Shown here in pieces: positions 5,974 through 54,710 of a stretch of 64,000 nucleotides of DNA. Position numbers and translations under genes: made by a program. The notes beneath the pieces are model-generated. The model made no database searches, had not been told where the DNA came from, and saw only the letters and a list, made by a program, of their open reading frames with translations. Location of the stretch: assembly GCA_037893245.1 (NCBI GenBank), contig JBAIAA010000809.1, positions 496,001 to 560,000 of the forward strand. The letters run 5' to 3'. This stretch comes from Crossaster papposus. Taxonomy: Eukaryota; Echinodermata; Asteroidea; Velatida; Solasteridae. Position 1 is the first letter of the stretch. Each line of letters begins with the position of its first letter.

Positions 5974-6322
5974 TTAAAGGTACATGTAGGATACACTATT
6001 GGGTATTGCTTGAATTATCAGGAATGGGTGGATTTTGGGGGTTGTATTTTATAGTAAATATTGTTAACTGACCTGTCTGAAACTTTACATTCGTGGATGC
6101 CGAGAAAAGCAAGAAAAATTATGTTTGTTTTCAACAGGTGTCAAGTTGTTCTTGTTAATACAGCGATCATTATTATTTTGTAATTCATATTTTCGGAACA
6201 ATTACAGGATATGTTACACAATCATCTTTTTGCTGGATGCCTACAATCATTATTTACTTTCAAATAAGTAAGATACATGTAACGATATTTCTCAATAATT
6301 CGGTAGTAACATTTTCCGATGT
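5974..6322 (-). mobile_element. MITE-A copy, reversed, degraded far end
   Basis: TTAAAGG, a short TACATGTA insertion, then GGATACACTATT. The other end fades after the CAATAATTCGGTAGTAACAT block. It is a GGATACACC-subfamily copy. Confidence 0.8.
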
Positions 6323-6483
6323 TACCATAGTCTTAGACTGTGGTGGTTTATACAATGTTGTTGACAATTAAATACATCAAAGTGCGTGCACACTTTTTTA
6401 CCTGATGCACTGTGTTGTGTCTGGCAGGGTTAGGGGGTAATATCCGAATAAGATGGCAATTAGTATTGTAACTCTTATTTTTA

Positions 6484-6583
6484 CTTAAATGTATATGTAG
6501 GATACACCATTGGTAAATGCTTGAATTATCAGGAATGACTGGATTTGGGGGGTTGTATTTTATAGTAAATATTGTTTAACCCT
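6484..6583 (-). mobile_element. MITE-A fragment (one end only)
   Basis: The first 100 bp of a reversed copy, ending abruptly at the internal GTTTAAC, where the small CCCTAACTCC element begins. Confidence 0.75.
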
Positions 6584-6666
6584 AACTCCCTCACCATTGT
6601 TATTGAACAATACAATTCCTTCAAAATCCTCCAACTTCCTTTGTTGTGTAAGGAGTTAGGGTTAAA
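6582..6666. mobile_element. Tiny TTAA element with CCCTAACTCC inverted ends
   Basis: TTTAACCCTAACTCC and GGAGTTAGGGTTAAA enclose about 55 bp. TTAA plus CCCTA-like ends recall piggyBac-type termini, but there is no other support. Confidence 0.6.
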
Positions 6667-7052
6667 GGTAGGATACACCATTTGCAGATATCCGTTTTAT
6701 ATACAAAGTTTACTACAGAATTATTAGGAAATATCTTACTTATTTGAAAGTAAATAATGGTTGTAGGCATCTAGAAAAAGGATTGCGCTAGATATCCTGT
6801 AATTGTTCAAAAAATTCTATTAAAAAAGAAAAAACCACGATCGCCAAACGGCGATCGCGAAAAAAACAAGAACAACATAAGAACAACTGCCCGACACCAT
6901 TTGAAAACAAACGCTGTTTTTCTTGCTTTTCTCGGCGTCCATGATTGTAAAACTTCGGACAGCTCAGTTAAACGATATTATTTTACTATAAAATACTACC
7001 CCCTAAATTCACCCATTCATGATAATTCAAGCAATTACCAATGGTGTATCTA
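6663..7052 (+). mobile_element. MITE-A copy, nearly full length
   Basis: It starts TTAAAGGTAGGATACACC, has the central hairpin CGATCGCCAAACGGCGATCG at about 6838-6860, and ends at CCAATGGTGTATC without the final CTACCTTTAA. Confidence 0.85.
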
Positions 7053-7378
7053 AGTAAAATGTTTCTTATTAATTGGGTAGTAACAATTATTTTTTTAGGT
7101 ACAGCCATCTCAACCCAGAAAGATATCCAACAGTTGAGGTGTTTATGCCTTGTCCCCAATGTTTTTTTCCCCCACAATGTTAAACAACTTTAATGCAACC
7201 TCACGTAGTTAAATGGGTCAAACCAAAAGGTATTGATCGCAAGTGCTTTCTTCAGGTTGTTTTTCAAGACACTGCACATCAATTCTAATGCACAAGGTAC
7301 TGTAGTTTGTATGCCTATAGATGTTTATTAGGACAATTTTCATTTACTTATTTTAAAGCAATGTATAATCAAGTATAG

Positions 7379-7722
7379 CTTTAAAGTTAGGATACGTCAT
7401 ACACCATTTGCAGATATTGAAAAAGTTTACTGCCGAATTATTAAGAAATATCTTATTTATTTGAAAGTAAATAATGATTTCAGGCATCCAGCAACATAAT
7501 TGTGCTAGATATCCTGTAATTGTTCTGAAAAACTTAATTTTATATACAAAATTTCCACCATCGCCGGATAAAAACAAACGCCGTTTTTCTTGCCTTTTTG
7601 GGGGGCATCCATGATTGTAAAACTTCGGACAGGTCAGTTAAATGATATTTAATATATTTTAAAATACAAACCCCAAAATCCACCCATTCCTGATCAATTT
7701 AAGCAATTACCAATTGTGATGC
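7379..7722 (+). mobile_element. MITE-A copy, far end interrupted by another element
   Basis: It opens TTTAAAGTTAGGATAC and has lost one half of the central hairpin. Its terminal CAATTACCAAT is cut by the inverted-repeat element beginning at about 7717. Confidence 0.8.
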
Positions 7723-7993
7723 GATCAAGCAAAATCAGTCTGAAGTAGGGCTTGGTCATTTTTGGGATTTTTACATTCTTTTGTAGCGTACTTCAGGTTT
7801 CATTTCAGTGAAAAAAAAACCATGTGAATACGACCATTTGAACACCAGTACGTTAAAAATAAAGAAACTGAGAAAATCATGTTTTTGTATCATTTCCCTT
7901 CTAAATTTGGTTAAAAGAGTATTTTCATGTAAAAGAAAAATATTTTCCCCTTCTATTTTTGTAAAAAAGTGATTTTGCTTGATCGCATCACAA
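7717..7993. mobile_element. Inverted-repeat element with TGTGATGCGATCAAGC ends
   Basis: A perfect terminal repeat of about 23 bp (TGTGATGCGATCAAGCAAAA and its complement) at 7717 and near 7970-7993. It sits inside the terminus of a MITE-A copy. Internal sequence is AT-rich and non-coding. Confidence 0.75.
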
Positions 7994-8456
7994 TTGTGTA
8001 TTTGGGCTCACCACAGATACATTTAATCCAAGACTTCTTTGAAAAAAAACTTTTTTTTTTCTGATAAGTCATAAACAGGTTTTTATCTGCACACTTTAGA
8101 AAGGTTAGAATGGGTTATAAATACAGACCATGATGAAAGGCATGGGATTAGATGACACCTTTTCTTTTCCTGAAGGTGCATGTATTAAATGTTTGCCACT
8201 GCTTGCATTAGGAACTTGAGAAACATGACACTGTGTGTGTCAAAGATGTCTCCAGTCGTGCAGTTTGGGATTACAATTAAACAGATGCTTCCAATTCTAA
8301 AGCTTTAATACCAATAATGGTACATCTCGACACAAACATGCAAGAACAAATACCGGTACATGCAAGAATATGTTTTTCAAATTTTGCACATATGCTACAT
8401 TAATTGAGAAGATTTGAAGCTCGGTTGTCTTTGATAATAAAAACCTGAACACTCGA

Positions 8457-9086
8457 ATTAATAATAATAATAATTCTGCTGCTTTTATAGCGCTTTCCAT
8501 TGTATACAACGATTTTAAAGCGCTCTACAATTATTACCCCGTTCATCATGCCCTGGACCACGCGGCAGCCTTTTAGTTTTACAGGCACGCAATCGGCATC
8601 GACCCTCACTACAATTGTAGTTAAAGGTAGTATACACCATTTGCAGATATCGAAAATATTTACTACCGAATTATTAAGAAATATCTTACTCATCTGAAAG
8701 TAAATGTTGATTCTGGGCATCCAGCAAAATGATTGCGCTAGATATCCTGTAATTATTCAGAAAAATAGAATTTTATAATGAAAAATTCGCGATCGCAAAA
8801 CAAAGATAACATAAGAATAACTGCTCGATGCCGGTTGAAAAAAAAAGCTGTTTTTCGTGCTTTTCTCGGCATCCATGATTCTAAAACTTCGGACAGCTCA
8901 GTTAAACGATATTTACTATAAATACAACCCCCAAATCTACTCATTCATGATAATTCAAGCAATGACCAATGGTGTATACTACCTTTAAGTGTCTTGCCAA
9001 AGGGCACAAACACCATTTCCTTGAATAGGTTTGAACCCATGCACCATCGTACACGAGTCAAACACTATCACCACTGGGCCACTGCA
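8457..9086 (-). mobile_element. tRNA-derived SINE, minus strand, interrupted by MITE-A
   Basis: Read on the minus strand: a tRNA-like head with box B GGGTTCAAACC near 9030, then after the inserted MITE-A a tail with AGCGCTTTAAAATCG, AGCGCTATAAAAG and a TTA/ATT repeat. It has diverged from its tRNA source. Confidence 0.65.
8621..8988 (+). mobile_element. MITE-A full-length copy inside a SINE
   Basis: 368 bp, with TTAAAGGTAGTATACACC at one end and its exact complement at the other. GTATACACC subfamily. The central hairpin is collapsed to a single arm. Confidence 0.92.
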
Positions 9087-9208
9087 TTCTACAAACTATC
9101 GTACAAAGTAGACTGTAATTTATGTTTTTGCTTTTTGTATCTATTGCATATCCGTGGTTGTGTGCCGGTTTCTTTCTGTAAATTGTACTTGTTGGCGCAG
9201 GGCAGGGT

Positions 9209-9492
9209 TGTAGTCGAGTCTCTGCAAGTCCGTTCACAAGTCCTTTCGTGAAGCCAGTCACAAGTCCCTTCGTGAAGCCAGTCACAAGTCCCTTCGTGAA
9301 GCCAGTCACAAGTCCCTTCGTGAAGCCAGTCACAAGTCCCTTCATAAAGGCAGTCACAAGTAACTGGATGAACAATGACAGAGGAATGCTTTTGTCAAAG
9401 CTCATTTGAATAGCTTGTGATTTGAATTGGAACTGAAGGACTTGTGATGGACTTGCAGGGACTTACAGGGACTTGTGATTGACTTGACTACA
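9209..9492. mobile_element. Foldback element with internal 24-bp minisatellite
   Basis: Ends TGTAGTCGAGTC and GACTTGACTACA, with CTGCAAGTCC and GGACTTGCAG just inside. The interior carries a minisatellite (9232-9365). A second copy at 16001-16566 lacks the minisatellite and contains a MITE-A. Confidence 0.8.
9232..9365. repeat. 24-bp minisatellite
   Basis: About 5.5 units of AAGCCAGTCACAAGTCCCTT plus CGTG, nearly identical except for the last unit. It opens a repetitive reading frame on the minus strand that is not a gene. Confidence 0.9.
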
Positions 9493-12900: not shown

Positions 12901-15900
12901 GCAAACATACCCCCCAAATTTTTTTTTTTTAAGTGGTTAAATAAAGTTAAGCTTTTATTCCAACCGTACTTTACTATTTTGTTCTCTCTTTGCTCCCACT
13001 TTTCCTAATTTTCCCCTTGAAATGTGTACTTTTCCCTACTTTTTTTGTCCCACAACTTTGAAAAATGAGATCTCTTGAAATATTTGTCATAACAGTGTTA
13101 ACACTTTCATATAAATACGGTAACACAATGAAGGGCTTTGGATGCAAGAGGACTGCAACTGTACCGTACTTCCCAAAGCTTGCATGTAAAGATGCAGATG
13201 GATGTACCAAATGAGGCTTATGAATCAGTGGAAATGGGCGAGTATCACCTTTTAACCCTCCTACAATAATACGTTAACTAAAAAAAAGAAAACTTCCTCT
13301 TTCATAGCGTACGAGTTACAATAGGTTTGATAGAAATGATAACTGGCTCCGTGTTGGCACTGAGAAAGGGAGGGTTAAAGCCTGCGAAAGTCCAACTTTT
13401 ATCCTGTTTTTGTCCACCAAAGTCCTACTTTTATCGTCCAAAGTCCTACTTTTATCCTACTTTTATCGTCCAAAGTCCTACTTTTATCCTGTTTTTGTCG
13501 TCCAAAGTCCTACTTTTATCCTGATTTTGTCCTCCAAAGTCCTACTTTTATCCTCAAGTCCTACTTTTATCCTCAAGTCCTACTTTTATCCTCAAGTCCT
13601 ACTTTTATCCTGTTTTTGTCCTCCAAAGTCCTACTTTTATCCTGATTTTGTTCTCCAAAGTCCTACTTTTATCCTGATTTTATCCTCCAAAGTTCTACTT
13701 TTATCCTGATTTGATTCTTCAAAGTCCTACTTTTGTCGTCCAAAGCCCTACTTTTATCCTGTTTTTGTCCTCCAAAGTCCTACTTTTATCCTGATTTTGT
13801 TCTCCAAAGTCCTACTTTTATCCTCAAAAGTTCTACTTTTATCATGATTTTATCCTCAAGTCCTGAATTTGTTCTCCAAACTCCTGATTTTCCCCTGTTT
13901 TTGTCCTCCAAAGTCCTACTTTTATCCTGATTTTATCCTCCAAAGTTCTACTTTTATCCTGATTTTATCCTTCAAAATCCTACTTTTGTCCTATAAATCC
14001 TACTTTTCGATCTGGGCCTTCTTAACCAGTTCGCGCCGGGATTATTTTAACATCGCCGAGCCGACGGGCGGGATTATTTTTAACGAAACTCGATCCGAAG
14101 CGTGTTCAGGCTGATAGTGCTGGGTAGCACACCCACGCATTTCCGGCCTTGCGCTCTGCTGACATACATTTCCGAACTTGAACTTGGCGTGTTTATTCGT
14201 CATCCGTTTTGAATTTGGGGAAATTTTTGCGTTTATATACGTCATCCGGCGCGAACTGGTTAAAAGCCACACAAATGAGATAACGGCTTTCCTACAAGTA
14301 CCGGTATACACCATAAATTTGCTTTTGCTGTAATTTTCGAAAATGGATGGGTTACATGTATATTATGACGCTGACCTGTTTAAAGTTTTTGTGTTTATAG
14401 AAGCTGGAAAAAACTAAGAAAAAGTGCTGTTCTTGCAGTCTAGTTCCTTGACTTCCTTTCAGACGAAATAAATAAATTAGGGGCGGTGTTAAAAAATACA
14501 GTAGTCAGGTTCTTACAATAATTGCTGTTTAAAATTGATACAAAATTCAACTTGTTGTTAAAAATCACATCAGGTGCCGTGATGATTGACTGTTATTCAC
14601 TTGTATTTCCTAATAATTAAGTAGTTATTATGTTTGGTATATCAATGGATAAATTCCTCCATGGTATATCCATACTACATGTACTTTTTAAGCAACAAGT
14701 TTGTCAACAAATCCCTTCTGACCTTGGTTAAAACTAACAGCAGTTTGAGCTGCTCTTGCACAAACATTACAGCAGCTTTGTCAACAGATCGGAAGTCGTA
14801 ATTGCCTTTTATGGCTGGCACTGAAGCTGATTGCGCAAGACTTGGGTGACCTCATCCAGCTTTGCGCATCATTCTAAAAAAACAACCCTGATATCATTTT
14901 TCTATTCAAATCACCCTCTGAATGGTGTATTTCTGTCAATCACAGCACTCATAAAACTCATACAACTGCATCCTGTTTTTCTGTCTAGAAAGTAGAAGAT
15001 TAAACAAAAGTTTTGTTTTTTTCAATTTTGTTCCTATGTGTGTTGGTGCAGACCAACGCGTCACTTGGCTTGCAATGAACAATGCCATTTCCGTTTTGGC
15101 GGCAGTAGACTGCTGTAAGTTGTAAGTGCTGTTGCACGATTTATTGAATAAAGGAATAATGCGGATACAGTAGTTTCATATGAAAACACATCTGATCACT
15201 ATCAAACACTCCCCCCTTTCTGCTTTTGGGGGTTTGTTCATTTTGTTTGGTTTGTTGTTTTTTTTGTTTTTTTGGTTTTTTTTGGGGGGGGGTACTTTTT
15301 GTTTTTGTGAGTAGCCAAAGATTTCTTCACTGGTTGAAATGAGACAAATTTGGATTTGTTGTGGCGAAACCAAATCACAAGGCCACGGTAGAAACACAGT
15401 CGTGTTTTGAACGCTTTGGGGTATAACTGTTGCTTACTATTCTCACAATCTGTGCATTGTGTTACTGAACCCTATTATATTTTGTTACTGCACTGTAACA
15501 ACAGTTTGTTATTAAACCGCTACAAGTCCCCATTGTCCTTACCCAGTGCCATGGCCATCATCACTGGGGAAAGTTAATTCAATTTAACCTTTGCAATCAG
15601 TTGGTGTAGATTCATCAGTGCATACACAATGTAGGCCTAAATGCCTGCAAATGAACACCTGTGCGAAATCCCTGCATTCATTCATCCATCCATCATCCAT
15701 CCATCCATCCATCATCCATCCATCCATCCATCCATCCATCCATCCATCCATCCATCCATCCATCCATCCATCCATCCATCCCTTTATTCATTAATTCATT
15801 CATTAGTTGATCATTCATTCAAACAAATGTATAATTCACCAAGAAAAAACCCAAACTGTATTCATAAGGTACCAGTATGTGTTCTTGTATGTTCATACAT

Positions 15901-18900
15901 TTATGTACTGTGTATCATGTAATATGTACACGTAATATGTACTGGTACATGTACATTGTACAGTATACATGTTCAAAAACAAAATACATTTGTGTACATG
16001 ATTCGAGTCCCTGCAAGTCCAGTCACAAGTCCAGTCTTAAAGGTAGTATACACCATTGGTCATTGCTTGAATTATCACGAATGAGTAGATTTGTAGGGTT
16101 GTATTTTATAGTAAATATCGTTTAACTGAGCTGTCCGAAGTTTTACAATCATGGATGCCGAGAAAAGCACGAAAAACAGCGGTTTTTTCAACCGGCTTCG
16201 AGCAGTTATTCTTATGTTATCTTTGTTTTTTCGCGCTCGCCGTCCGGCGATCGCGAATTTTTCATTATAAAATTTTATTTTTCGGAAGAATTACAGGATA
16301 TCTAGCGCAATCATTTTGCTGGATGCCCAGAATCAACATTTACTTTCAGATGAGTAAGATATTTCTTAATAATTCGGTAGTAAATATTTTCGATATTTGC
16401 AAATGGTGTATACTACCTTTAAAGCCAGTCATAAGTAACTGGTTGAACAATGACAAAGAAATGCTTTTGTCAAAGCTCATTTGAATAGCTTGTGATTTGA
16501 ATTGGAACTGGAGGACTTGTAATAGACTTGCAGGGACTTACAGGGACTTGTGATGAACTTGATGACATCCCTGCTAGTAGTACACTACGTATACATGTAC
16601 AGTGTGTACAATGATTTGTGGTACATTGTACATGATCATACATGTAGTACAGTATATCATTTGATGTAGTACAGTATATCATTTGTTTCTCTTTGTAATG
16701 TAAACATCCTAAGAAGAGAAAACTATACAAATACAGGATCATCAGTTAACAAAAATGTAAATTTTTGTATTTTTTTAAAAGTATCCCTAATCCTGCATAC
16801 CAGTATAATGCACGGTACTGGTATATGACTGTATATCAGTGGATAATAGTCAATATACCAGCCCCTGTATTATACAGTCTAACAGGCTTAACCCTGTTTT
16901 TATTCCATATCCAAATGGTTTAAGTTATTAATACCACTCCATTATAGACAATTTATAATTGCATGACAAATCATCCTTACGGGCAAATAAAATTTGCGAT
17001 CTATTTTAAACCCTTAAAGGTAATGTAGGATTCACCATTGGTAATTGCTTGAATTATTATGAATAGGTGGATTTGGGGGTTGTCTTTTATAGTAAATATC
17101 GTTTAACTGTCCTATTTTTTACAATGTTCTTTTAACAATTACAGGATATCTAGCGCAATCCTTTTGCTGGATGCCTACAATCATTATTTACTTTCAAATA
17201 CATGCAAGTAAGATATTTCCTAATAATTCGGTAGTAACATTTTTTCGATATCTGCAAATGGTGTATCCTACCAGTACCTTTAAGAGTACACAATTTGCTT
17301 TCGATGTAATTTCCGAAAATAGATGAGGATTTATATTTTATTGTAAATACTGTGACGCCGACAGGTCTGTTTTAAAGTGTAGTTAGAACTACCCAACAAT
17401 AATTGATGTTCTGGTAGTCTAGTTCCTTGACTTCCTTCAGACGAAACAGCAATTTATAGATGTCAGGGAATCATCAGGTTTAAGAAAAACCAGACAAGTT
17501 GGCTGGCACCCCATTCATGGATGTGAAACCGTATTGCAAATAAAATGTGGACTATTAATAAAATGGGGGCAGTGTTTAAAACAGTCGGGTTTTTCCAACG
17601 ATTGCCAGCTGGCAATAGTTGGAAATTGATACAAACATAAAGGTGTTATATATAGACAAAACAGAACTATATATCGTTGTCACATGTCACACAGCCATCG
17701 CAGAGTTCAACTCAAACATGCTCGCATGAAGCAGCTCATTGTGTTCATCCACGAACACACTTCTAGTTTAGTAGTTTGTTTTTTTGATGTTTACAAATGG
17801 TACCGGACATGTAAATGACTACGTTACCCCTCACAATTCTACTCAGTACCAGTCCCCCACCTCAACCCCTCTTCCACCTCTCAAAGCCCACAGCCCAAAC
17901 AAGTTTTGAAACCAATTTGTCAGTGGTGTCCCACAGGTGCTCCCACCAAAGTTTGTGTTCCCCCCAACCCCTCTTTTGAAGTGGAACCTTCCTATTTACT
18001 AGCTGTAATGAAAAGCTTCCTATTGCTGGTCTCAATGGCTCCAAGGGGATGCGTGTTGATTCCAGCATGGAGCTATGATTCCAGGCAGTATGTACTGGTA
18101 ACCCCAAGTACAGGGGTACTGATGCTCAGGGATCCCCTCAACAATCTTTTTTCTAGTTTCTTCATCGTTAATCCTGGCACATGCAAGTTCTGGGGTCTCT
18201 TCTAAGCTTATTTGAGACATGTTGGGGGCACACGTGTTTTATTTTCTTGAAAATGGAACAATCTACTTTTAACTAGTATACATACATGTCAGCTTATGAA
18301 ATTATTCTTACCATTGCACTTAAAACTATTCATTCATAAATACCCCAAAAAGTTTACCCATTCCTATTGGTTGAGAGCCTGTCACATAACTGGTCTTAAA
18401 CGGATGATAAAGACACAGCCCAAACAAGTTTTGAAACCAATTTGTCAGTGGTGTCCCACAGGTGCTCCCACCAAAGTTTGTGTTCCCCAAACCCCTCTTT
18501 GGAAGTGGAACCTTCCTATTTACTAACTGTAATGAAAAGCTTCCTATTGCTGGTCTCAATGGCCCCAAGGGGATGCAGTGTTGATTCCAGCATGGAGCTA
18601 TGATTCCAGGCAGTATGTACTGGTAACCCCAAGTACAGGGGTACTGATGCTCAGGGATCCCCTCAACAATTTTTTTTCTAGTTTCTTCATCGTTAATCCT
18701 GGCACATGCAAGTTCTGGGGTCTCTTCTAAGCTTATTTGAGACCTGTTTGGGGCACGTGTGTTTTATTTTCTGGGCGTATACCTTTTTCAACTATCCAAA
18801 AAGAAACCGACCAAATTATTGTTAGAAATCTTACTTGATGTAAATATACTAATTATTGACTCTAAACTCCTTGTGAAATGGTTCCTTCTGGTTCCAGTAT

Positions 18901-21900
18901 TGTTTCAGTGAGTGGGATTACAAATTTTGTTACAAATTCTTACCATTGCACTAACTAACATTCGTTCATAAACACCCAAGAGAGTTTACCCATTCCTATT
19001 GGTTAAGAGCCTGTCCTACCGGTAGTATTAAACGGATGATAAAGACATGGCTTGCTAGTTTTAAACACTTTTCCAGTGTCGCGTGAAATTTGGACCCCTT
19101 TGAAATCCAGTGCCTTTTACTGTTTTATTGGTTGAACGTTCACAGTGCATGCGCAATACTTTTCAGTGAGTCAGTATTTATGATCCAAAATTCACAACGC
19201 ATTCGCCACAGCTGCATTTGCGCAACATGCGCAGTACGTGCAACGTGTGGGTCAATGTCCATAAAAGAAGTTGTTTACATCTAGCTCACAAGCTGGATGT
19301 TCCATTATTTAGCTGGAAAAGTGTTTAGGATATCATGAACTGAAATTGTTCAACAAAATTGTTGGAAAGTTTTAATTGTTGACTTGTTTTGACTTTTGGA
19401 CCAAAGGGTTTGATTTTTTTTTTAACCTAAATGGTATTTAGGAATGGGAATAAAAAAATGTTGTTGGCCGGTATTCAACATACATGTACATTTAAAACTG
19501 GCTCATGGGCCTGGACATTGTTAATGCCTCCACGATTGTAAAACGACAATTACTATAAAATAAAACCCCCAAATTCACCCATCGAGCAATTACCAATGAT
19601 GCATTCTACCTTTAATTCAGGTTATAATTTACTTAATGTCAAGTACATGTAGGATATTAAGTAATATTAAGTAATTCAGTATGTTTTTTTTCTTTGCAAA
19701 TGTTTGTGTAGTTCCTAGCAGTACAAAAAGTTGCCTAATAAATCAGTGACATAATAATATAAATCTCAAAGGTAAGCAGATTTGTCAGCTATACTCAACA
19801 TTTCTGCTAAGTGTTTAAAGGTAGTATACACCATTTGCAGATATCGAAAATATTTACTACCGAATTATTAATAAATATCCTACTAATCTGAAAAGTAAAT
19901 GTTTATTCTGGGCATCCAGCAAAATGATTGCGCTAGATATCTTGTAATTATTCCGAAAAATAGAATTTTATAATGAAAAATTCGCGATCGCCGTCCGGCG
20001 ATTGCGAAAAAACAAAGATAACATAAGAATAACTGCTCGATGCCGGTTGAGAAAAAACCTGCTGTTTTTTGTGCTTTTTTCGGCATCCATGATTCTAAAA
20101 CTTCGGACAGCTCAGTTAAACGATATTTACTATAAATACAACCCCCCCAAATCTACTCATTCATGATAATTCAAGCAATGACCAAGGGTGTACACTACAT
20201 TTAACAGTGCCATGAAATTGGGCTGAAGTGAAAGGTACCATTTTTTTACAATGGTCTCAAGTGATGCTCAGTTTGCCTCTAATAACCTAAAAGAAAAAAA
20301 ATATTTCCAACATATTGGTGTGATTTTTTTTTTTCTAGCTCCTTTGGCAAGTAAGTACCAGACTTGTTGAGAAAAAAACGACCACAACTGGCAGATTTTG
20401 CCAGTGATAGTCTGGTGTATGTACAGTACATTGTATTGTAATTGAACCAGCTATGATAGGAGGAAGTATTCAGTTTGTGGGTTTGGGATCTCAAGGTTAC
20501 TGGGCCAGTTGTGGGTCTGAGGCTTGCCACAGACTGTCAGACTTTGCTTCATTAAAGGGACAGACCACATACCAATACATGTGTCCAGGCCCTACCAGTA
20601 CATGTGTCCAGGCCCTACCAGTACATGTGTTGGGACCCTGGCCTTGCTGTGGTAAAAAGCACCAAGTAGTGGTACTGTACATTATCGTAGATTGAAAAAG
20701 GCTTGGCAAACTTGTATTAACAGAAACATTAAAATCTTAATGGATTTTAGTTTCTACAAATGTTATTTAAATTTGTGTACCGTGGGTCCTTTGGTGCTGT
20801 GCGCACCTTGGGTGTTACAGCAGTCAGGGTGTGTGGAAAATCACATTGGACTTGGAGAATTCTGGACAAGATGTACATGTACACTATGTACTGGTATAGT
20901 ATGGTACATCATGGAGGAATAAGTACATGTACATGTAGATCCAAATGATAACATTCTTATTCTTTGTACTACATGTAGTTGTAGAGCAAACTTTAAAGGG
21001 TTTGACAATGATTGATTTGCACTGTGTCGTGTACATTGTACATGTAACATGATGTAACATTTACTGAAACGGGCGCAATTTATCAAATTCTTTCTCCTGT
21101 CTTGTGTCCTCCAAACCGAATCCATTTCACATCAGATTTGCATCCAATGATACATGTACATGTACCGGTACATATGTATGTTCACCGAGATCTGCATATT
21201 TGAATCCCGTGCATTATTTGCAACAAATTCACAATGATCTGTAATTTAATGGATATCAAAACCCCAAAAGCGCAATAGAAGGAAATTTTTCGGCTGCAGT
21301 GGACTACGATTTCCGTCCGCAAGTTCCGCGGTAGATTTTAACGTTGTGACCCGCGGAAATCGCAGTGTGGGTACGTGGCTTGATAAAGCCTGATGGACTT
21401 ACAGTGTACAATGTACATGTAGATTTGGAAAGGTTTTCAATTTGTTTTGTAGGGCCTAGTACAGTACGTACCGGTACATGTACCTGTACTACTGGTATTT
21501 AGAGATGTACTGTATTTATACAGATAGTGTACATGTATACAGCACTACCTACCGGTATGTGTTTGAGAGATGGCCATTTTTTTGTTGCTGGTGGGGTCGC
21601 GGGGTCAAGTTGTTGACTGCAATCATCAAGTGCTTTTGACAGCTGCAGGACATGTGACATGCTGGAATGGTCTACTCTCAGATTTGAGAGGGGTGTGGTA
21701 TTATGTGTAATGTGTAGTACATGTACAGTATACAAATACTCATGGTTTGAGGGGTAGTACTAGTGGAAATTACTGGGCCGGAGGTGTACATGTAGGTCAG
21801 CTCGACTATGTACTTACCTCTCGCTCTTGACGATGCGAAGCGGGACCATTAATTCCCACTATTTTTTAAAGAAATACACCATGCTGTATTTGTTTTACTA

Positions 21901-36900: not shown

Positions 36901-39900
36901 TTTAAAAAGGCCATCAAGGCATATCATTTAAAGTTAGTATACACCATTTGCAGGTATCGAACATTTTTACTACCGAATTTTACTTTTTTAAAAGTATCGG
37001 TAAATAACAATTCTAGGCATCCAGCAAAATTATTGCGCTAAATATCCTGCTTTTTTCTTCTTCCGCATCCATGATTGTAAAACTTCGGACATGTCAGTTA
37101 AACAAAATTTATTATAAAACACAACCCCCAAATCTACCCATTACTGATAATTCAAGCAATTATCAATGGTGTATCCTATCCTTAACCTGCAGGTTGCTCC
37201 AAGGCAACAAAAATAATTGCTTCTTGGATATCTATATTTCTTGGCTCAATCAATTAGACACGTATTAATAGTTATAAATGTACTGACCTGTGTGACTTGG
37301 CTCGATACTGGATACGAGGCATTAATTCTTGCGCATCAATAACAAGAGATTTGTTCAGATTGTGTTACATGCGTGTTGATTCAAAGATTAGCCAATGAAA
37401 CCATTGCAGTGGATTATCTAGTATGATATTGTCTTTTGAGTCATTTATTTACAAGATTCAAGTCCTTTCCTTTGTATACGTGTACATGTACATTTGTTAA
37501 CTTGTACTTTGTATTAAAGGTAGGATACACCATTGGTAATTACTTGAATTATCATGAATGGGTGGATTTGTGGGGGTTGTATTTTATAGTAAATATCGTT
37601 TAACTGACCTGTCCGAAGTTTTACAATCATGGATGCCAAGGAAATCACGAAAAACAGCGTTTGTTTTCAACCGGCGTCGTGCAGTTATTCCTGTTTATTT
37701 AGCCATCGCCGTCCAAATTTTCTTAAACAATAAAGTAATAAAATAAATTCATTTCTCAAGTTTTCAACATTTTTCAAGGGATATACATGTATGATTGAAA
37801 AAGTGGTGTCAGTTTGCAACATTCTCAAGATGTGTGGCAAAGTTATGTGCACAGAAAAATACTGCAAAAAGCACAGTTTTATTAATATGATACTGGTATC
37901 TTGTCTTAATATTGTTCTTTTAAAGTATGGTTAAAAGCAATGACAACAAAAAAGTATAATAAATTTCAGATCCATAAGACTTAAAGGTAGGATCCACCAT
38001 TGGTAATTGCTTGAATTAAATGCTGGAATGGGTGGATTATGGGAGTTGTATTTTATAGTAAATATCGTTTAACTGACCTGTCCGAAGTTTTATAATCACG
38101 GATGCCAAGAAAAAAACCTAAGAAAAACGGCGTTAGAACTTTGTTTTTAACCGGCGTCAGGCAGTTGTTCTTGTTGTTGGCTTTTTTTTTTGCGATTGCT
38201 GTCGGCAATCGTGATTTGTTTTTAGGAACCATTTTTTTCGGAACAATTACAGAATATCTAGTGCAATCATTTTGCTGGATGCCTACATGTAGAATCGTTA
38301 TTTACTTTTAGGAAAGTGAGATATTTCTTAATAATTCAGTAGTAAAAATGTTCGGTATATTCAAATTGTGTACTTGTATCTTACCTTATGCATCTCTTTT
38401 GTGGAGTTGTGTTTTTCTGAAAAGAACCGATTGGTAACTTGATATTTTGAATAGTATGCTCGAAAGAGTATGGAGAAAGTTTGTCGGACTCATGTGCAGG
38501 GGCTTAAGGTCCTCAAATACGATTCTTGGTGTGAGCTTTGTGAAAAAGAGATTTCATGTACATGTACTCCTTTCCGAAGAGGGAAAAGACCTCTATTCCC
38601 CTAACGCCCCAACCCCTTAAAAAAGGAGAACAATATCTAGAATGTAGAATGGAAGTTGTACATGTACCACATGTGTATCTCCTTAGTTACAAGGGTCAGT
38701 GATTCATCCGAGTAGCTTGGAAATTCTAGAGTATCAAAATCATTCCAACCCATGCTGCTTCTTCCATTGAAGTACACTGTACATGTACATCCCTCTTTAT
38801 AGAAGATTAACTCCTGAGGTTAGTCGTAAAAGTAGAGTTTATGAGTAGAAGACATTTTTGTGCTGGCGAGTCTGCATTAAAACCCAACCACCAAGTGGGC
38901 GCCCGGATCATAAAAATGAGAAGGCTGTCTTTCTGACTCTTGGGAGGGAGGAGGGGGGGGGGGGGGGGGGGGTGCAGATCTTACTCAAGTCTCAACAGAC
39001 AAACTTTTGAAAGAAAAAAAAACCAACCAAAAAAGATGGATTAGAATAATGAAATGTAGGAAGTATGTACATAGCACCCAGGCAAGGGTGATTTATACTG
39101 GGAAGATGACTCGCGATTGCTATACAATTACACGCAGCAAGTCGGTGCAGCCACTTAGCCGCAATGGCATCGACTATATTAATTACACTGGCCAAACACT
39201 ACAGTCATAGACGGGCTGCGCAGCCCCAGTGGTCATTAATTAGAAGTTAGCTGCATGTGGAGAAAGTCAAGAAAAGTCAAGAAAAAAAAATCCTCTATCA
39301 ATTTGCAGTGTCCTAGGAGGCTATGATCAGAAATAAGAAAGAAATGGATAAAAAGATAAAAGAAAGGACAGGGGACAAAAAAAACCAAAAAAACCTAAAG
39401 AAGTGCTGGCTGTATTGCAAATTACAGGCATTAATCAGTGGTGGTGTGGCGTGGAGTTTGCTCTGATCTCTGCTGGGCGATTTGGCTAATGGATTGATAT
39501 ACTCGGCGAATACATTCCTAGTTAATATTCATTCGTCTTATTGGTACATTTACATGAGCGTAAACATCATAGACGTAGCCTATTAATTTACATTAGACTA
39601 GTCTGTTTTTGTGGTATGGTGTACCTATACTCAGTTCCCAGTGGAGACCCACAAACAATAAAATAAATTAAAAAGTCTCTAAAAGGTACATACTATGGGT
39701 TGGGATGTCTCTGCAAGGAACTTTGTGTACAAAGTCTAGGGTCATTGCTTAACCAGTTCACGCCGGAGGACTTATATAAACGCAAAACATTTCCCCAGAT
39801 TCAAAATGGATGACGTATAAACATGCCACGAGCAAGGCCGGAAATTTCTGTCGGCAGCGAGCAAGGCCGAAAATGCGTGGGTGTGCTTCCCGGTACTATC

Positions 39901-40027
39901 GGCCTGAACCCGCCTAGGGTTGAGTTTTGTTAAAATTAATCCCGCGCCTCTGCTCGGTGATGTTAAAATAATGTTAAAGGTAGGATATACCATTGGTAAT
40001 TGCTTGAATTATCATGAATGGGTGGAT

Positions 40028-40066
<39 letters not shown>

Positions 40067-43000
40067 GTATTTTATAGTAAATATTGTTTAACGGACCTGT
40101 CCAAAGTTTTACACTTATGGATGCTGAGAAATCTAAGAAAAACGGCGTTTGTTTTCAACCGGCGTCGGGCAGTGGTTCTTATGTTGTTCTTGTTGTTCAT
40201 GATCGTCGGACGGCGATATTTTTTTGGTAACATTTAATTATTTAAAACATTTACAAGATATCTGGCGCAATCATTTCGTGGATGCCTACAATCATTATTT
40301 ACTTTCAAATAGTAAGATATTTCTTAATAATCGGTAGTAATTTTTTTGTTGATATCTGCAAATGGTGTACATCCTACCAACAAAGGACAGAGTAATGCCA
40401 TGTCTTTACAAGGATACAAATTTGAGAATGTGTGTTGTCCTGAATAATTCTGCTAATGCCAACTTTTCTTAGTTTTGTGTATATTAAACCATCCTACCGA
40501 TACGTGTACCGTACATGTACCAAAGCAATTTTAACCTCGTGTAAGTACGGTACATGTAATATACATTTTTTAAAGTCAGCCTAGTTCAATGATAAAGCAC
40601 TGTTGGATTACATTTACATCATGTACCAGTACATGTGTGTGTGTAAACTTAACCACCCTCTGTGTTCAATTCATGGTCCGATTTCAAATGCAATTAATGT
40701 TTTTTCTACAAGAAAACTCCCGCCTGTTTTTGCCGTTAACGGCTCCTTTTTCACTTTGTACTTAATCATCATTAGCCGATTGGCGGTATTAATAGCAGTG
40801 ACACGTGGCTCTAGGGCTGTGGCTAGCTACAGTACATGTCTCCCCCCCCCCCCCCCCTTCCCCTTCTTTGCCCTACCGTCATTGACTTCGTTGAATGGCT
40901 ATACCAGCGCTGAGTCCACCGAGGCTCCCGTGAGCTTTAATGACGGCGAGGGAGGGTTTAATTTGCAGATTGCGTCGTGTTGCTTCTGCTCTTGAACTTT
41001 GAGATGGTTGCTCTCATTTTCTCTCGTTCTTTTATATATATTTTTGTTGGGAGGGGGGGGGGGGGGGGGGGAGACATTTGCAATCAACTGCTTGAGGATG
41101 TGTTAACCATCTGTAATGCAAACATAACAATAACGGAGTTCTTTCTTCGGTTGGGGGAGGGGGGGGGGGGGGGGGGGGGGGGTTTGCTCACTCATTGGAC
41201 TAATTTGGATGGAAGATGATATTGTGATGATGCGACTTGCGATCGATGCTAATTGTGGTAATAATTATTCTGGCAAATGTGAATGACCAGCATATGTTTG
41301 GCACATGCATGTACGCTTAAAACTGTAACAAAACTACTACCAATGGTGAAAATGGTATACAAATCATTGATTATTGCACACACCCAATAGAGTTTGTCAA
41401 CTCTTTGTACTCGTTCTATACTGTACATGTACCATCCTATTCATTCATTCTGTAATCATGTTTATTGTAATTAAAAAGGAAGACAAGTGCCTTTCATCTA
41501 TTAAGAAACTTTAAACAGATTGCTACATGTGTGTCTTCTTGAAAATTTAACATAAACCAAGATATAATAATATCTTTGTTAAAGGTAGGATACACCATTT
41601 GCAGATATAGAAAAAAATTATTACCGAATTATTAGGAAACCTTTTACATGTACTTTTTTGAAAGTAAATAATGATTCTCGGCATCCAGCAAAATGATTGC
41701 ACTAGATGTCCCGTGATTTAAAAAAAAAAAAAACATTCGCAATCCGGCGATCGCGAAGAAACCAAAAATATAACATAAGAATAACTGCCCTACGCCGGTT
41801 GAAAACAAACGCTTTTTATGCTTTTCTCGGCATCCATGATTGTAACACCTTGGACAGGTCAGTTAAACGATATTTACTATAAAATACAGCCCCCCAAATC
41901 CACCCATTCATGATAATTCAAGCAATTATCAATGGTGTATCCTACCTTTTAATAGTATAGATAATCACCTGCACTTAAAGTAATAATAATAAAGTTGGTG
42001 CTTGTGTAGCGCTTTATACCCTACAATGTAGTGTTTCAAAGCGCTTTAAAATTATTCCTGTTCATCAGGAACGACACTATTTCTGCCAGAGCTCAAGGTC
42101 AGCGCATGTGGTCTATTGTGTAAATTATGCATATACATCAATCTGAGACAAAATACATGTAAAATGTTTCTGTTGAAGCGATCCAATTCAATAGGAGACT
42201 ATATAGTTGATTTGCGCTTTAGTAATCTTCTGTTGTGTGTTGGCCACTAAATACACGCATTTTCTAAATAAAAAAAAGTTTGACACAGTCCAACCAAATG
42301 TTTGTGAGAAGACAAAAGTGTGACTGTCAGTTTTCATTGTAATCCACACATTGGCTAGTCGACTGAAATGTCCATTGCAAAAGCACAGAGAAATGGTCAA
42401 GTAACTTTTGCGTGGAGCCAATTGCCTTGGCAACGGACAAAAGATGACGTATTGACTCTGGTATACTCTACAGGGTGTCTCTAAAAAAAAGTATACCCAT
42501 TTTCAAATTCATATTATTGCAAAACTACTGAATATTTCAGAAAAAGACAAATGTCTGTGGAAAGGGTACAGGTAGAAGGTCCTCTGTCCAATGGCATAAG
42601 GTTCAATTATGTCATTGACGTTGATGACTGAGCAAACAAGACAATTAATAAATGTACTGAAATCAGCACTGTGACAAGTTGGGATGATAAGGCGGGCAGT
42701 GAAGATGCCAGCTATGCATTAACAGGAATGGTGGCCATGTGGATGGCACAGAACGTTAAATTTGTCAGTTAAGTGTGACACCACAAATATAAAGAGATCA
42801 GAAAATTACTCATCGACCATGTCATCTTCACTTTTCCAATGTGTTTAAACAGCAAAACAATTTGTCTTCAACCAGTTTGCGTCGGGATTATTTTAACGTC
42901 ACCGAGCCGACGCACGGGATTATTTTTAACGAAACGGCAGGTTCAGGCTGCCAGTACCGGGAAGCACACCCACGCATTTCCGGCCTTGCTCGCTGCATGA

Positions 43001-46000
43001 CAGACATTTGCGGCCTTGCTCGTGGCGTGTTTATGCGTCATCCATTTTGAATCTGGGAAAAACTTTGCCTTTATATTCGTGAGCCTGAGCTTTGTCACTC
43101 AAGTAAAAACAACTTGTCACAGTGCTGATTTCAGTGCCTTTCATAAGTGTAATGTTTGCTCAGTCATTCATGGCACTGACATATTGAACCTTATACCATT
43201 GGGCAGAGGACATTCTGCAGATATGTCCTTTTCTGAAATATTCAGTAGTTTTGCAATAATATGAATTTTAGAATGGGTATTTTGTTTACAGACACCCTGT
43301 ATAGGCCGAGGCAAGTGACACAACAAATTTGCTTGGTATTTGTTGGTTTTTTTCATATGAAAATAAACCACTACCCCTCCTGCACGTCCCCTACCCCTCC
43401 TGCACGTCCCCTACCCCTACCCACTCAGTATCAGAGGAAAGTTAATCAAAACAGGATGTAAAGGACAATACACACCTGTCCCATACATGTAATAGGAACC
43501 ATGCTTCACTGCACTTCACCCACTGGGTTGAGATAGGCATTGTTGAGATTTGGAGCCCTTGTTGACACAAGTGACCTCTCTGATGATGATCAAACAATTT
43601 TAATGATCAGGTACTGGTACAAAAAGTCTTTGGGACAAATCGTGGGCTATGATATACATGTAAATAAGTTCTTTTTTGTTCACAAAGGTCTTAGTTCAGG
43701 GTGGTTTGTTTTTCTTCAGTTTTTGTTTGAAGCAACATCGCTTTTTGAGGAAATCCAACCGAAGTCGTTGAGTGTGCCAGCTTTTTTCTTTTCCATGCTG
43801 TTTGCATGCAGCCAGTGCTATGATGTCATAGGTGTTACAAGCTTTGAATTTCAAATAATGGATGGTTGTTTTAGTATTGTACATGTAGTTGACTGGTGTC
43901 TGTTGACTAGTAATGAGACGTGGAAGAAAATACACAAGTACTAGGTGAAGAAGTATGGTTTGCCAAACTTCAAGTGATTTTGTAAACAAACTAGTCGTAA
44001 ACTACGGACGACAGGGTTTCAAGATTAACTCGAACCCAAGGATGACCAACTCGGACCCAACGACAACCAACTTGGAACCATCATGATATTAATATGGACT
44101 GTTTAGTGGTTTTCAGATCATGCGCCACACATTTTGTCATGCACAAAGTTTGACCCCTTGTTTAATGAACGGATGAAGTGATCAGTCAATCACTCTATCC
44201 ATTCATTCAAACTAGTCAACAGTCTTGCGAAGGCCAAAAAGAAACTATAAATTATGCTATAGGAGTTGGTCGTGGGTCCGAGTTGGTCGTGGGTTCGAGT
44301 TTACCTGATCCCGATGACAGACAGCAATCAGTTTGTAATGGCAAAATATAAGGACATCTTTCAAGTAATCAGTTTGTCTGGAGTTGAGATTTTTGAAGGT
44401 GTTTTCTTTTTTGAGAAATGGAGTGACTTTGTTCGTGTACATATTAGCTCCTCTTTAGTTTTTAATTAATCCAAAATAATTATCAGCACACATGAATTCT
44501 TGCCACAAAGTAAATTTTTTGTTTTGTTCTACATGTACTTCGTTTGTTTAGACCAAACTGCATAAAATGTCCCTTTTATTATGGTTAATTTGTAAGTATA
44601 TTAATGGTTTGTGCAATATTTTGGACTGTTTTTCAGAGGTACCCAATTCCTGTTGTATGGGGTTCCAGCGAGGGGAGATGTACAGCCAGCAAGGAAATGC
44701 TGATGGTAAGTCTTAAGATGTTTGCCCCGCTTGACTTTCTTAGGTTGTTCTGTGGGAGTTGTTTATGTCTTACTCGCGAGCTGGACATTCCATTATATAG
44801 CTAGAGGGGTGTTTTGAAAAACATGAAGTAAAGTTGTCAACCAAAAATCCAAAATCGTTGAAAAGGTTTAATTTTTTTTAATTTTTTTTTCTCAAGTTAT
44901 CGGTCCATGTACTTTGAATGGTCTTGAAACGTTTCTGTAATTTTTCTGTTAGTGATTGAACAGTTGGATACACATGTACCGGTACATTTGTTGGAGCAAA
45001 ATTTTCAAAACAAATCTGTATTATTGTGACAGGCAATAACTGTACATGTATGTTGTGGAGTAGGGAGCTAGAATAGCGTACTTGTACATTTACACAAGTT
45101 AAAAACAAAATGCATGTGTATTTAAACAGAACCACATGCTCAAATCCATAATGATAATTATCCAACATAGACTAAAAATATAAAGGATTAATAGTAATTG
45201 TTAATAAATTTGACCGCCAACATTTTGAAAATTGCCATAAAAACGCGCCAATATTATCAAAAACACTACAATGTAGTACATTTATTTGTAATTGCTCAAA
45301 TGTATATTTACAATGTATACAGGTACTTCATGGCAATATTTCAAACAGGGGCATTACCATGATTACACTTGTTCTTTTAGAGTACTCATGTTCATGACCA
45401 AGTGGATTTCAAAAAAATATGTTGGACGGTGGATTTTGTTAATTCCGTTGAATTTTATTAAACAACAATGTTAGATATTTTTGTACACAAAAAATCGGGG
45501 GCAAAGGATGGTGTTTGGTATAGCCGAATGTTCAGTATAGCGGTGTTCTGCTGTACCATTTACTTGGCTGCTTCCATTTCCATAAGCCTGCACACACGCA
45601 CACACACGCAGCTCTGTTTTGACCGGCAATCGTGGACGGGGTATTGTCCGACCGTCTTCCCTCTTTTGTTTATACTCTAACGTTTTTTTATGATCGCCAT
45701 AGGATTTGTACATGGGAAAAGATCGTGGACGTTGTGTCAATCGTGGACCCATTGTTTGAATCCATATTCTTTTGTCCGACGACCACGATTGCCGGTCAAT
45801 ACAAACGCACACCGTCGTGTATTGACCGGCAATCGTGGACGGGGCATTGTCCGACCGTCTTCCCTCTCTTGTTTGTAACGTTTTCGGATGATCGCCATAG
45901 GATTTGTACACGAGTTGAGATCGTGGACGTTGTGTCAATCGTGGACCCATTGTTTGCCTCTCAATTCTTTTGTCCGACGACCAAGATTGCTGGTCAATAC

Positions 46001-49000
46001 AAACGCACAATCCTGGCACCACACTCTGCTAGTAAGTCAAGCCGATGTTGGGCCAGACTCGAAACAATTATCAATTTTGTATCCTTTCTCCTCCAACCCT
46101 AACCCCACCCCTGGGGGAAGGGGGTATTAGGATTTGCTGAACAAAGCATGACAGGTTGGACCTTGTGGCAGGGCAATGAGGGCATGTGCCAGTGTTTTTG
46201 ACTGGCATTGTGAATGTCATTTCATCCGAGTTCCAGAAGGGTTTGCCTGCCAGCAAACTTCATCATTAAAGGGGTATTATTGAAATATGATACCCCCATA
46301 TATCTCAAATTGGAAAGCTTCTCTTGTTGTCCTCCAGGGATCATTTTTCCCTTCTGGTTTTTTTATAATATTTTCTTAATGTTTTTTTTCCTACCAACTT
46401 TCTGCTTTAGGATATTCATATTTTAGAGTATTATGTTGAGTTTAGAGACCTGTGGTAGGTAATTTTCTATTCGTTGGTTGTGATTCCAAAAAGTTAGGCA
46501 GTGTTGTTGTAATGTCATTGTACATTTCAACCATGCCAAGATCTTAAGGCCAAACAACAAACCTCCAAAAAAAATATAAAAATTGTTATAATAAAAAATG
46601 TGTTGCAATTGCTTTTATTGATTGATTAAATGTTTATTGACAGGGCAATACTGGATATTATAGAAACACCAGAAAGGTTTAGATTTTAGTTGGAAAATAC
46701 TGATAAAAGGTTGTGAATGAGAATTTGAAATGTAAGCTTTCAGGTTTTTAAGTATTTCTGCTTTTCCCTTTTTTTCCCTATTTTTTTTCTCACTTTGCTT
46801 CTACTTTTCCTATTTTTTCTTAAAATTTCTACTTTTTCCTTCGAAAAGTTGATTTCCATTGAATATTGATCCATGTGTGTGAAACAGTTTTCGCGTTGCT
46901 GTCATAAAAAATTATGTCAGTTTCGCTTCTGCCGTTTCAACAATTTTCCTCGTCGGCATCTTCCACTACTCCTTTGTCAGTAGCCGTAGCTGCTCCAAGT
47001 TGGTGGTGTTGTGTAGGCGCTTGCCCACGCTCTTCAGGTAGTGTGGTAGTGAGGGCTTCCTCGCCAACCTTCCATGTCTGCTTCTATCCCGAAGTACTCA
47101 TTGGTGAATTTCTGAGCAGGTACGTCTCTTGGTAGTCGCATGACATGGCGGAAGAATCTCCAGCGTGCTTCAAGGGCCATGATGCTGAGCGGACCACATA
47201 GAGTGCCTTATTGGAGATGCGGTGCAGCGACAGTATGCCAATGATTTAACGTAATGATCTGCCATATTGTAGGGAAGTACAGAAGCACGAACGCGTTGTA
47301 GATCCGCAGACGGGAGTACCTCACTCACGTGGTGACACCGTAGCCAAAGTGTTCTTATCTTATGGAATGCTACATTGGCTACATGTAGCTGCTTACGGTG
47401 GGCGACATCTTCCCCATCGTCATGCGCCATTCCTCTCCCCTTCACGGTCTACCTGATTTAGCTCAGTGTGCTCAGTTTTAGTGAGGTTGATGGTTAGAAA
47501 CCATTAAAGCAGACTTTATGGTGCGGTCTGCTCCACTATGTCGAGACATTCTCGCGTGTTGCTCACAAAGTCTAAGTCGTCTGCGTATACATCAAGAGAG
47601 ACAGCCCTGTCTCTATTGCTCGGCGTCTGCAGTTTCTCACGAAGATCACGGGGAGCTGTCAGATACAACACAAAATGAAGGGCTTTGGCCTTTGGTTGCA
47701 GGAGTACCGCAACTGTACTTCCAAGAGCTTAGACGGAGCACAAGCCAAATGAGGCCTAAGATGCTGTGGACATGGGTGATTATCACCAAAAAAACAACAA
47801 CTAAAAACCTGCAATAGTCCTACTTTTATGCAGATTATTTTTTTGTTTTCCTAATTGCGAAAATGTTGATCTTACTTTTCTCTTACTTGTTTATCTGGGT
47901 CTGCTGGAAAGTTTGTTATTGGTTAAACAGCAACACCTACAGTGTAATTTATGAAATAGATAATTCAATCCACGGTTTACGGAGCCAAGCAATACATGTT
48001 TATCTGCGCAGTTCTGCTGGTATTTGTGGTCCTCATGGTTAATTATTTTCTGTCTTGTAGGATGTAGCGGTATTCCCGAGCAAGCAGCAAGACCTTTCTT
48101 TGACGATGCCAGTGTTCCTGAGAAGATTCCTGAAGGTAAACGTGTTCGTAAAAATAAAATAAAAAAGTGCAGTCAACGTTTCCAATGAAACAAATGGATT
48201 ATTTACCCAAAGATTAACATACCCAATTTCCCATACTCGATAAGCCCACCTTGTACATGTAGTATCAAGGTCTTGTAATTGGAAGAATTGAAAAGTGGAA
48301 TAAAATGTGGATTTGGTTCTCTAGGTATATATATTTTTATGTATTGTACATCCATGCCAAATATTCTTAATAAAAAAAGACCTGTCATCATTTCTGCATG
48401 AAATGATAAAACAGATGGGACAAATTGGCCACCAAAATTAATTTTTTTTTTTTTTTTTTTAGGGTGGGGGGGGGGAAGGGGTGGCGGCAATAATTGATCT
48501 ACGAAAAAGCAAAAGAGAATAGCTGTGCTCGGTGAATGATGGGAACAATGAAGCTTCTTTTTTTCTAGTGTTTTTTTTTTAGGGGATAAGACGAGGGCAA
48601 CTAAAAGCGATTTCACTGCTTTTCAATCAGTTAACCGTCAATGCTGGAGGATTGCTAATTCATCATGGCTACAAAGCCCCTCTGGTTGGCAGCGCTGGCG
48701 TGATTACTTAGCGGACAATATGCTAGATGCATTAAATAGTAAATGGCGATAGGGAGAACAAAAACAGAGGAGAGAGAGGGCTGGAGGAGGGGAAGAAAAG
48801 AAAATAAAGGAGGTCTTGATGATGATAATACCCTCCGCTCGCGGGGTTAGTGGCGGTAAGACTTGGTCGTGAGGGGCTACGCCCGGGAGCTGAAGAAAGT
48901 ACAACAATGGGACAAGCTGAGCAAAACGGCCAAAAGAAAAGATGAACAAAAAACAGACCGTGTTGCCAGTCATTCATCAAGAAAAACGGAGCCTGGTTAG

Positions 49001-52884: not shown

Positions 52885-54710
52885 AGAAAAACAAAATCAG
52901 CTTAAACAAATCCTGGAAGTATGGACATTTGCGAGAGTGTGTGTCTGTGTTTGATTCATCAGTACCAACCTCGGAATTTGTTACCAACTCATTTGTGTCT
53001 GTGCATTTGGTTGTAATTTTGTGCTTTTTAATTTTTTTTTTATTGTGCATTTACGGTATCCTGTGGGGGAAAGGAGCAGTTTAAAAAAAGGTAGAATACA
53101 CCTAACTGACCTGTCTGAAGTTTTACAATCACGGCGTTGGGCAGTTGTTTTTGTCATTTTTTTCCCATAAAATTTAACTTTTCGGAACGATTATCTAGAG
53201 CATATCTACATGTAGAGCAAACATTTTGCTGGATGCTTAAAATCATTTTTTACTTTCAAACAAGTAAGATATTTTTTAATAATTCAGTAGTAAAATGTTT
53301 TGATACTTTTTGATATGACGCCGGGAAGTGAATATTGGCGCATACCCGCTAATCCATCCAGAATGTTGTAGAACACGGCCTGTGTGGCAACTGCATGCTC
53401 TGTCCAATGTGCAGTGCAGCTACTTGACAAAGGCTGCTGGGCAAGCATGCATATATTCTGCAACAAGGGGTTATAATGCACGCGTAATGGTTAAACAAAT
53501 TCAATAAACTATTTTTGAACACATGCTAGCATAAAATCTTAACCGTGTTTCTGTACTATTTTGTCGCATTTGATTTTTGTTTAATTGTTGTTTTTTATTA
53601 TTGTTGGTTTTTTTGGGGGGAAGGGGTTGTATAACTTGTGTTTCATTGTAGCAGTTAAAGTTTAATCAGTTAAAGATCAATCTTACAAAATAAAGTACAT
53701 AATATTTTGTACTTGTTTATATTTTGGATTACACTGTTGGCTGTTTTATAGCAGAAAGTGGGAAAAGTCAAAATTGGGACAATAATTTAGGGCTTTGTGG
53801 ATGAGAAAGGCAAATCTTTAACAACATGAGAATTTTACTTGATGATTAATTATTGCTTTAGAAAACATTGTTTGATGGCAGGTGATTCGCCATTTAAAAT
53901 TTCTCCTTATATTGGCCAATCAGAATGGTGAGCTTAGCTGGCAGGAATTGTTGACCATTGCCATTGGTCAATTTAGCTGTACATGTAACATTCAACATTT
54001 TAGTTAGAGATTTTTGTATGTCATAAACATTTTTTATTGAATGGTTTATTTACATGGTAAAGTACTAAATTATAAAAAGGTGGGACATTAATCTCTCGGA
54101 AAGAGTTGCTTGTTTGGTTTACAACAACAAAAGGAGCTAGCTTAAATAATTCAGGTTAATTTTTAGAGGATTTTTAACTAAATCATTTTTGAGAAATACA
54201 CTGTAAAAAATAAGATTGAAAAAAAGGTTTGTGTGGTTTAGTTTTTTTTCCTCCAACAAAGAAAAGAAAAGGTTAGATTTTAACATAGAGTACTAGTATA
54301 TTATCCAGGTGGCAGGGCACTGAGTACTTCTTTAAAGAATGAGTGTGGAAAAGGCATTGTGGCCCTGGAATGTGTATAAATAAAAATCATGTTTTTTGTA
54401 CAGAATCACTTAGAGACTTTTTTAAAATCTAAAATGGGTGATTTACTTTGGTTAGTTTTACATTCGGCTACGTTTACACAGACATGCCTGTAGAACAGGA
54501 AGTATACATACTGTATCTAAGAAAAAAAAGGTGTTTTTTCATGCTCACTGTAAAGTTAATGCCCCTTCTTTCTTCAATATATTTTTGTCACTGAAATTTT
54601 AAAAATACAAAGAATGTAGACTATAAAGAGAAAAAATAAACAACTAATTTTTTTATTATGAAAAGATTTAAAAAAGATATGAAAGATAAAAAAAAAAAAA
54701 AAAAAAAAAT
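52885..54710 (+). other. Probable 3' UTR of ETV1/4/5 with candidate poly(A) signals
   Basis: AT-rich sequence after the stop with no coding potential. AATAAA hexamers lie at 53503, 53689, 54379 and 54635; the last is followed by an A run of over 20 at about 54687-54710. A further AATAAA lies at 58158. A decayed MITE-A copy occupies about 53088-53307. Which signal is used cannot be decided from sequence. Confidence 0.45.
53088..53307 (-). mobile_element. MITE-A relic in the 3' UTR region
   Basis: AAGGTAGAATACACC, then the ACTGACCTGTC block and, near the other end, CTTTCAAACAAGTAAGATAT. The rest is deleted. It is the oldest-looking copy. Confidence 0.8.

Follow-up and report, generated by a model that had tools for sequence, protein, structure and literature searches.

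Kolobok elements duplicate a TTAA target on insertion and have 5′-RR/YY-3′ termini, which the available portion of PMC9587614 sets in contrast to piggyBac. The T2-MITEs of Xenopus, which pair TTAA with the terminal motif AGGRR, have been assigned to Kolobok (PMC6004289, excerpted text), and the part of PMC12628747 available to us already documents satellites that originated at transposon ends or within MITEs. Here we describe family A, a very abundant MITE family of an already known kind, in a 64-kb window (the whole stretch of DNA that was analysed) and in loci fetched from the host assembly. Family A resembles the Xenopus T2-MITEs, as the excerpts of PMC6004289 and PMC12628747 present them, in its TTAA target, its AGG-starting termini, its high abundance and the conversion of a MITE segment into a tandem repeat. 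It departs from the AGGRR motif given in the available text of PMC6004289 by starting with AGGTA, the fourth base being T rather than R. Like the autonomous Kolobok elements of the PMC9587614 excerpt, it has a TTAA duplication and RR...YY termini; unlike them, it has no recognised gene.

A dense MITE family in the window

A dense family of TTAA-flanked MITEs had been predicted for this DNA, and the family proved to be real: the end sequence TTAAAGGTAGTATACACC, with up to three mismatches, was matched 27 times on the two strands of the window, where 0.05 matches were expected from 100 shuffles. An nhmmer profile built from the nine two-ended window copies gave 26 window matches at a cut-off of E ≤ 1e-3, and merging three split copies (17014–17283, 36928–37185 and 55553–56029) left 23 copies or fragments of family A. 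The original prediction had placed at least 21 copies, in both orientations, between 5974 and 53307; the profile likewise finds 21 copies or fragments in that interval, in both orientations, together with copies beyond it at 851–1233 and 55553–56029. The copies, and one copy of a sister element (MITE C), are listed below with the evidence for each.

851–1233, minus strand: family A, truncated at the 3′ end and 20.5% away from the consensus, hence among the divergent copies (nhmmer, consensus distance)
5974–6344, minus strand: family A, 5′ end truncated (nhmmer)
6485–6601, minus strand: family A right-end fragment (nhmmer)
6662–7068, plus strand: family A with central palindrome, one mismatch (end and palindrome matches, nhmmer)
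7381–7726, plus strand: family A, divergent (nhmmer, consensus distance)
8621–8988, plus strand: family A, two-ended, TTAA on both sides (end matches, flanks)
16037–16422, minus strand: family A, two-ended, TTAA on both sides, near-intact palindrome (ends, flanks, empty paralogous site)
17014–17283, minus strand: family A, internally deleted (nhmmer)
19517–19615, plus strand: family A right-end fragment (end match, nhmmer)
19815–20204, plus strand: family A, two-ended, palindrome centre in GTCC orientation (ends, flanks, alignment)
22879–23029, minus strand: family A left-end fragment (end match, nhmmer)
24183–24352, minus strand: weakly matched fragment from the left part of family A (nhmmer, E 1e-8)
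25708–26094, plus strand: family A, two-ended, more divergent group (ends, flanks, consensus distance)
29050–29402, plus strand: family A, two-ended, without palindrome (ends, flanks, alignment)
29881–30275, minus strand: sister MITE C, ending in TTAAAGGGATCGTATAC and sharing 91.5% identity with the copy in L015 (sequence comparison)
30672–31042, minus strand: family A, two-ended, TTAA on both sides (ends, flanks)
34829–35197, plus strand: family A, two-ended, left TTAA altered (ends, flanks)
36928–37185, plus strand: family A, internally deleted, TTAA on both sides (ends, nhmmer, flanks)
37514–37743, minus strand: family A right-half fragment (end match, nhmmer)
37981–38389, minus strand: family A, more divergent group (nhmmer, consensus distance)
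39974–40382, minus strand: family A, about 405 bp, one end mutated (nhmmer, consensus distance)
41579–41951, plus strand: family A, two-ended, with a mutated right TTAA that reads TTTA (ends, flanks)
53082–53317, minus strand: family A, decayed fragment (nhmmer)
55553–56029, plus strand: decayed family A copy, split in two (nhmmer)

The nine two-ended window copies measure 353–390 bp, with one of 258 bp. Their ends follow the pattern TTAA-AGGTAG[T/G]ATACACCATT (here and below the hyphen marks the element boundary), and the consensus ends are identical over 21 bp save for T/G at position 11, in line with the near-perfect 21-bp inverted ends originally described. Family A combines features by which MITEs are recognised, being short (approximately 385 bp), high in copy number, bounded by inverted ends and flanked by a duplicated target. 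It has no recognised gene; open frames overlap its copies, for example one of 131 aa at 16089–16481. The 18-base family-A end had no exact match among viral contigs, and the copy at 16037–16422 had no match among phage records. Four 13-base forms of the end gave one match in the literature, a plant-vector paper.

The window contains no tRNA, and no Rfam family reached its gathering score there. At 32913–33524 a 204-aa open frame, a possible host exon, weakly resembles the N-terminal domain of ETS PEA3 (E 0.011, which falls short of the cut-off). Tandem repeats were noted at 36258–36537, 45615–46009 and 13387–14007: 141-bp and 198-bp repeats, each present twice, and a TTTTATCCTCCAAAGTCCTAC-type minisatellite.

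Target site

TTAA is intact at both ends of seven of the nine two-ended window copies, and TTAA/TTAA flanks were seen in 26 of 31 end-pair rows drawn from the window and loci L001–L030, three of the 31 reusing a right end. The eight flanking bases of these 31 rows showed no other shared motif except in L006, where CGTTGGC flanks the MITE copy at either end, on the far side of the TTAA (L006:1494–1500 and 1877–1883).

Three empty paralogous sites were found for the copy at 16037–16422, one each in the window (9344–9347), L012 and L017. Each has a single ATAA, and the joined flanks of the copy hold a single TTAA; its left flank is a variable repeat. In L017, sister MITE C occupies a TTAA in the interior of a family-A copy. 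Removing C but keeping one TTAA gives a sequence that agrees with the family-A consensus at 124 of 140 aligned positions (89%); the left TTAA copy of the nested C element now reads ATAA. Adjoining elements share one TTAA at L002:1501–1504 and at L021:2544–2547. The empty paralogues, the nested C element and the abutting elements with a common TTAA together support TTAA as the insertion site, with one copy gained. The original prediction had staked itself on duplication of the TTAA, naming an unduplicated site as the observation that would count against it, and on this point the empty paralogues and the L017 insertion speak in its favour.

Search for a transposase partner in the host

The host assembly was searched with a putative Kolobok-type transposase fragment, which matches Pfam PF20700 ('Mutator-like transposase', E 1.2e-8). 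This query gave at least 117 matches, with 100 of 428 candidates scored and a best E of 2.7e-74, and tblastn with the same query against the window and L001–L040 returned nothing at E ≤ 10. Comparison of the 117 matches with 150 THAP matches showed a THAP match 1–3 kb upstream on the same strand at 12 Kolobok-like loci (C658, C111, C123, C191, C195, C959, C381, C1277, C657, C117, C311 and C721). From the ends of the L033, L035/L036/L038 and L037 THAP loci, described below, the left end of such elements was predicted to lie 310–440 bp before the THAP start, and 120-base windows were read at four of the 12 THAP and transposase loci. TTAAAGG stood in the proper orientation at the predicted position in three of the four (L044, L045 and L047, the TTAA counted at L045 being also the end of an adjoining MITE-C copy), the background being 34 of 1660 windows for TTAAAGG and 32 of 1660 for CCTTTAA. 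L046 (C658) was without TTAAAGG in its predicted 120-base window.

Several other THAP loci have ends of this general kind. L035, L036 and L038 are copies of one THAP element, approximately 89% identical, with the right end TTAA-AGGTTCTACGC in L035 and L038 (TTAA altered in L036) and the left end TTAA-AGGGTCCTAG in L038 (altered in L035 and L036). In L037, TTAA-AGGTTCAGAG lies 335 bp before the THAP match. L033:922–2178 is a 1,257-bp element with a perfect 14-bp inverted repeat and TTAA flanks that begins AGATGG; its longest open frame encodes a THAP domain protein, with a THAP E-value common to 28 matches in the host list. The ends of the THAP/Kolobok-like loci, including those beside C191, C111 and C381, share only TTAA-AGG with family A, and the L033 element only TTAA-AG.

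Among the host loci read, no transposase gene was found with the ends TTAAAGGTAG[TG]ATACACC. The family-A end was absent from 1.2 kb downstream of C658 and from 2 kb downstream of C159, the latter holding only 14-mer look-alikes with up to four mismatches, none beside TTAA. The window and fetched loci contain 15 pairs of opposed family-A ends 1.2–7.8 kb apart, which we take to be ends of different copies. We rejected as direct partners the L035/L036/L038 element, the L033 element, L037, C191, C111 and C381, whose ends are related to those of family A but different. L031 and L032 were also rejected: they encode THAP and DDE_Tnp_4, an ISL2EU-like type, and contain only five-mismatch look-alikes of the family-A end.

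Other observations were made during this survey. L034 looks P-element-like by eye. Sixteen equal-scoring matches to Kolobok-like transposase exons, mostly about 5.24 kb apart, lie at G000:C721 224993–313547, a spacing that marks the region as a putative tandem array of a transposase-bearing unit. Equal-scoring THAP exons recur mostly every 110–190 kb along contigs C375, C453 and C733 of G000, which suggests very large repeated units. Eight equal-scoring, dispersed Kolobok-like transposase matches on C159 (where the copy is seemingly multi-exon) and seven other contigs have perhaps spread recently.

Superfamily assignment

The superfamily had previously been left unassigned among piggyBac, Kolobok and Sola3, and the evidence now favours Kolobok. 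The family-A boundaries, TTAA-AGG...CCT-TTAA, agree with the 5′-RR...YY-3′ termini of that superfamily and with its 4-bp TTAA target duplication, the latter being shared with piggyBac. From the TTAA target, the AG...CT termini and the presence in the host of THAP/Kolobok-like loci with TTAA-AGG, family A is most likely a MITE moved by a Kolobok-superfamily transposase encoded elsewhere. Such a transposase, which in Kolobok is a DDD/E enzyme with a C/DxxH signature, would bind the inverted ends of family A, excise the MITE and insert it at TTAA, which would be duplicated in the process. Its source may be a host Kolobok-like transposase with a THAP exon, or an extinct relative.

Mobilisation by a piggyBac-superfamily transposase would also account for a TTAA target with a 4-base duplication, in which piggyBac MITEs and family A are alike. 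However, piggyBac ends begin with CC (CC...GG type), whereas the termini of family A are AG...CT, and we regard this reading as improbable. The available portion of PMC9587614 sets the RR/YY termini of Kolobok against piggyBac. A TA-specific transposase of Tc1/mariner type is somewhat less probable again. It would require the flanking T and A to be a target preference only, and since TTAA contains TA, a palindromic site alone cannot separate duplication of TA from duplication of TTAA; against this, the 26 of 31 rows noted above retain the outer T and A, and an identical TTAA-AGG boundary recurs at the sister THAP/Kolobok-like loci. Sola3, which also has TTAA targets according to the original prediction, is less favoured because Kolobok-like loci with TTAA-AGG are present in the host, and movement by it or by another TTAA-target superfamily is the least probable of these readings, with very little likelihood attached to it.

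Central palindrome

The central GC hairpin that had been ascribed to the family stands as a feature of the consensus, but not as a sequence preserved from copy to copy: the exact form CGATCGCCGNNCGGCGATCG, with up to three mismatches, occurs only four times in the window. An alignment of 40 near-complete copies, drawn from the window and the fetched loci, still shows the palindrome as the consensus TTCGCGATCGCCGGACGGCGATCGCGAA, although nearly every copy carries mutations or a partial deletion in it. The centre of the palindrome occurs in two forms, GGAC and GTCC, depending on the copy, and two near-intact palindromes gave folding z-scores of −4.25 and −4.37. Because several copies of low divergence lack all or half of the palindrome, it is likely not required, and we rejected a required hairpin as the likeliest reading. 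More probably it is a relic with a passive role, or else a hairpin prone to extrusion.

Abundance, age and sister families

In the 1.02-Gb host assembly, family-A ends with at most one mismatch numbered 19,817 in the forward and 19,734 in the reverse orientation, and a reversed-pattern control gave 1 and 0. We also sampled 20 regions of 10 kb (L011–L030), picked non-randomly by taking round coordinates along five contigs; at least one family-A match occurs in 14 of these regions. These 200 kb contain 44 matches covering 3.8% of the sequence, 14 of the 44 belonging to one tandem array; at the same threshold the window has 25 matches and 10.5% coverage. The sampled loci also include a GPCR gene as well as a Raptor-like exon, which points to an animal host.

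Distances from the consensus in 40 rows fell at 3.3–8.6% (21 rows), 10.7–20.5% (16 rows) and 34–42% (three rows), in a sample enriched in young copies by the selection of L001–L008 for an exact T-type (young-type) end. We read the three most distant rows as a putative sister family B, and L002:696–1504 looks like a full copy of it with another insert. Sister MITE C, with ends TTAAAGGGATCGTATAC, occurs as elements of 383–396 bp at L015:4866–5261 and L021:2165–2547 as well as in the window. At least two sister MITEs (B and C) have TTAA-AGG ends like those of family A.

Tandem arrays of the right end

The terminal 54 bp of family A are repeated head to tail at L012:423–1179 (15 right ends) and L021:3925–4087 (four right ends), that is, in two of the 20 sampled regions. 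Since satellites of such origin are described in the available text of PMC12628747, these arrays are an instance of a known phenomenon rather than a new one. They differ in the source of the unit: that of Xstir, a Xenopus T2-MITE satellite treated in the same excerpt, comes from the MITE interior, and that of family A is the last 54 bp, with the right inverted end included. It is very unlikely that the transposase itself made the L012 and L021 arrays, by one-ended joining events recurring at the right inverted end, and that ordinary slippage or unequal crossing-over did not; if it did, family A would keep producing satellites that contain its ends and titrate the transposase. The arrays exemplify a satellite that originated at a transposon terminus.

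Implications

Family A makes up a sizeable share of the sequence sampled, so a superfamily name aids its annotation. To our knowledge, the matching of MITEs to their partners in the Kolobok superfamily has rarely been done outside Xenopus. A host with Kolobok-like and THAP loci, three of them near TTAA-AGG, would make such matching testable here.
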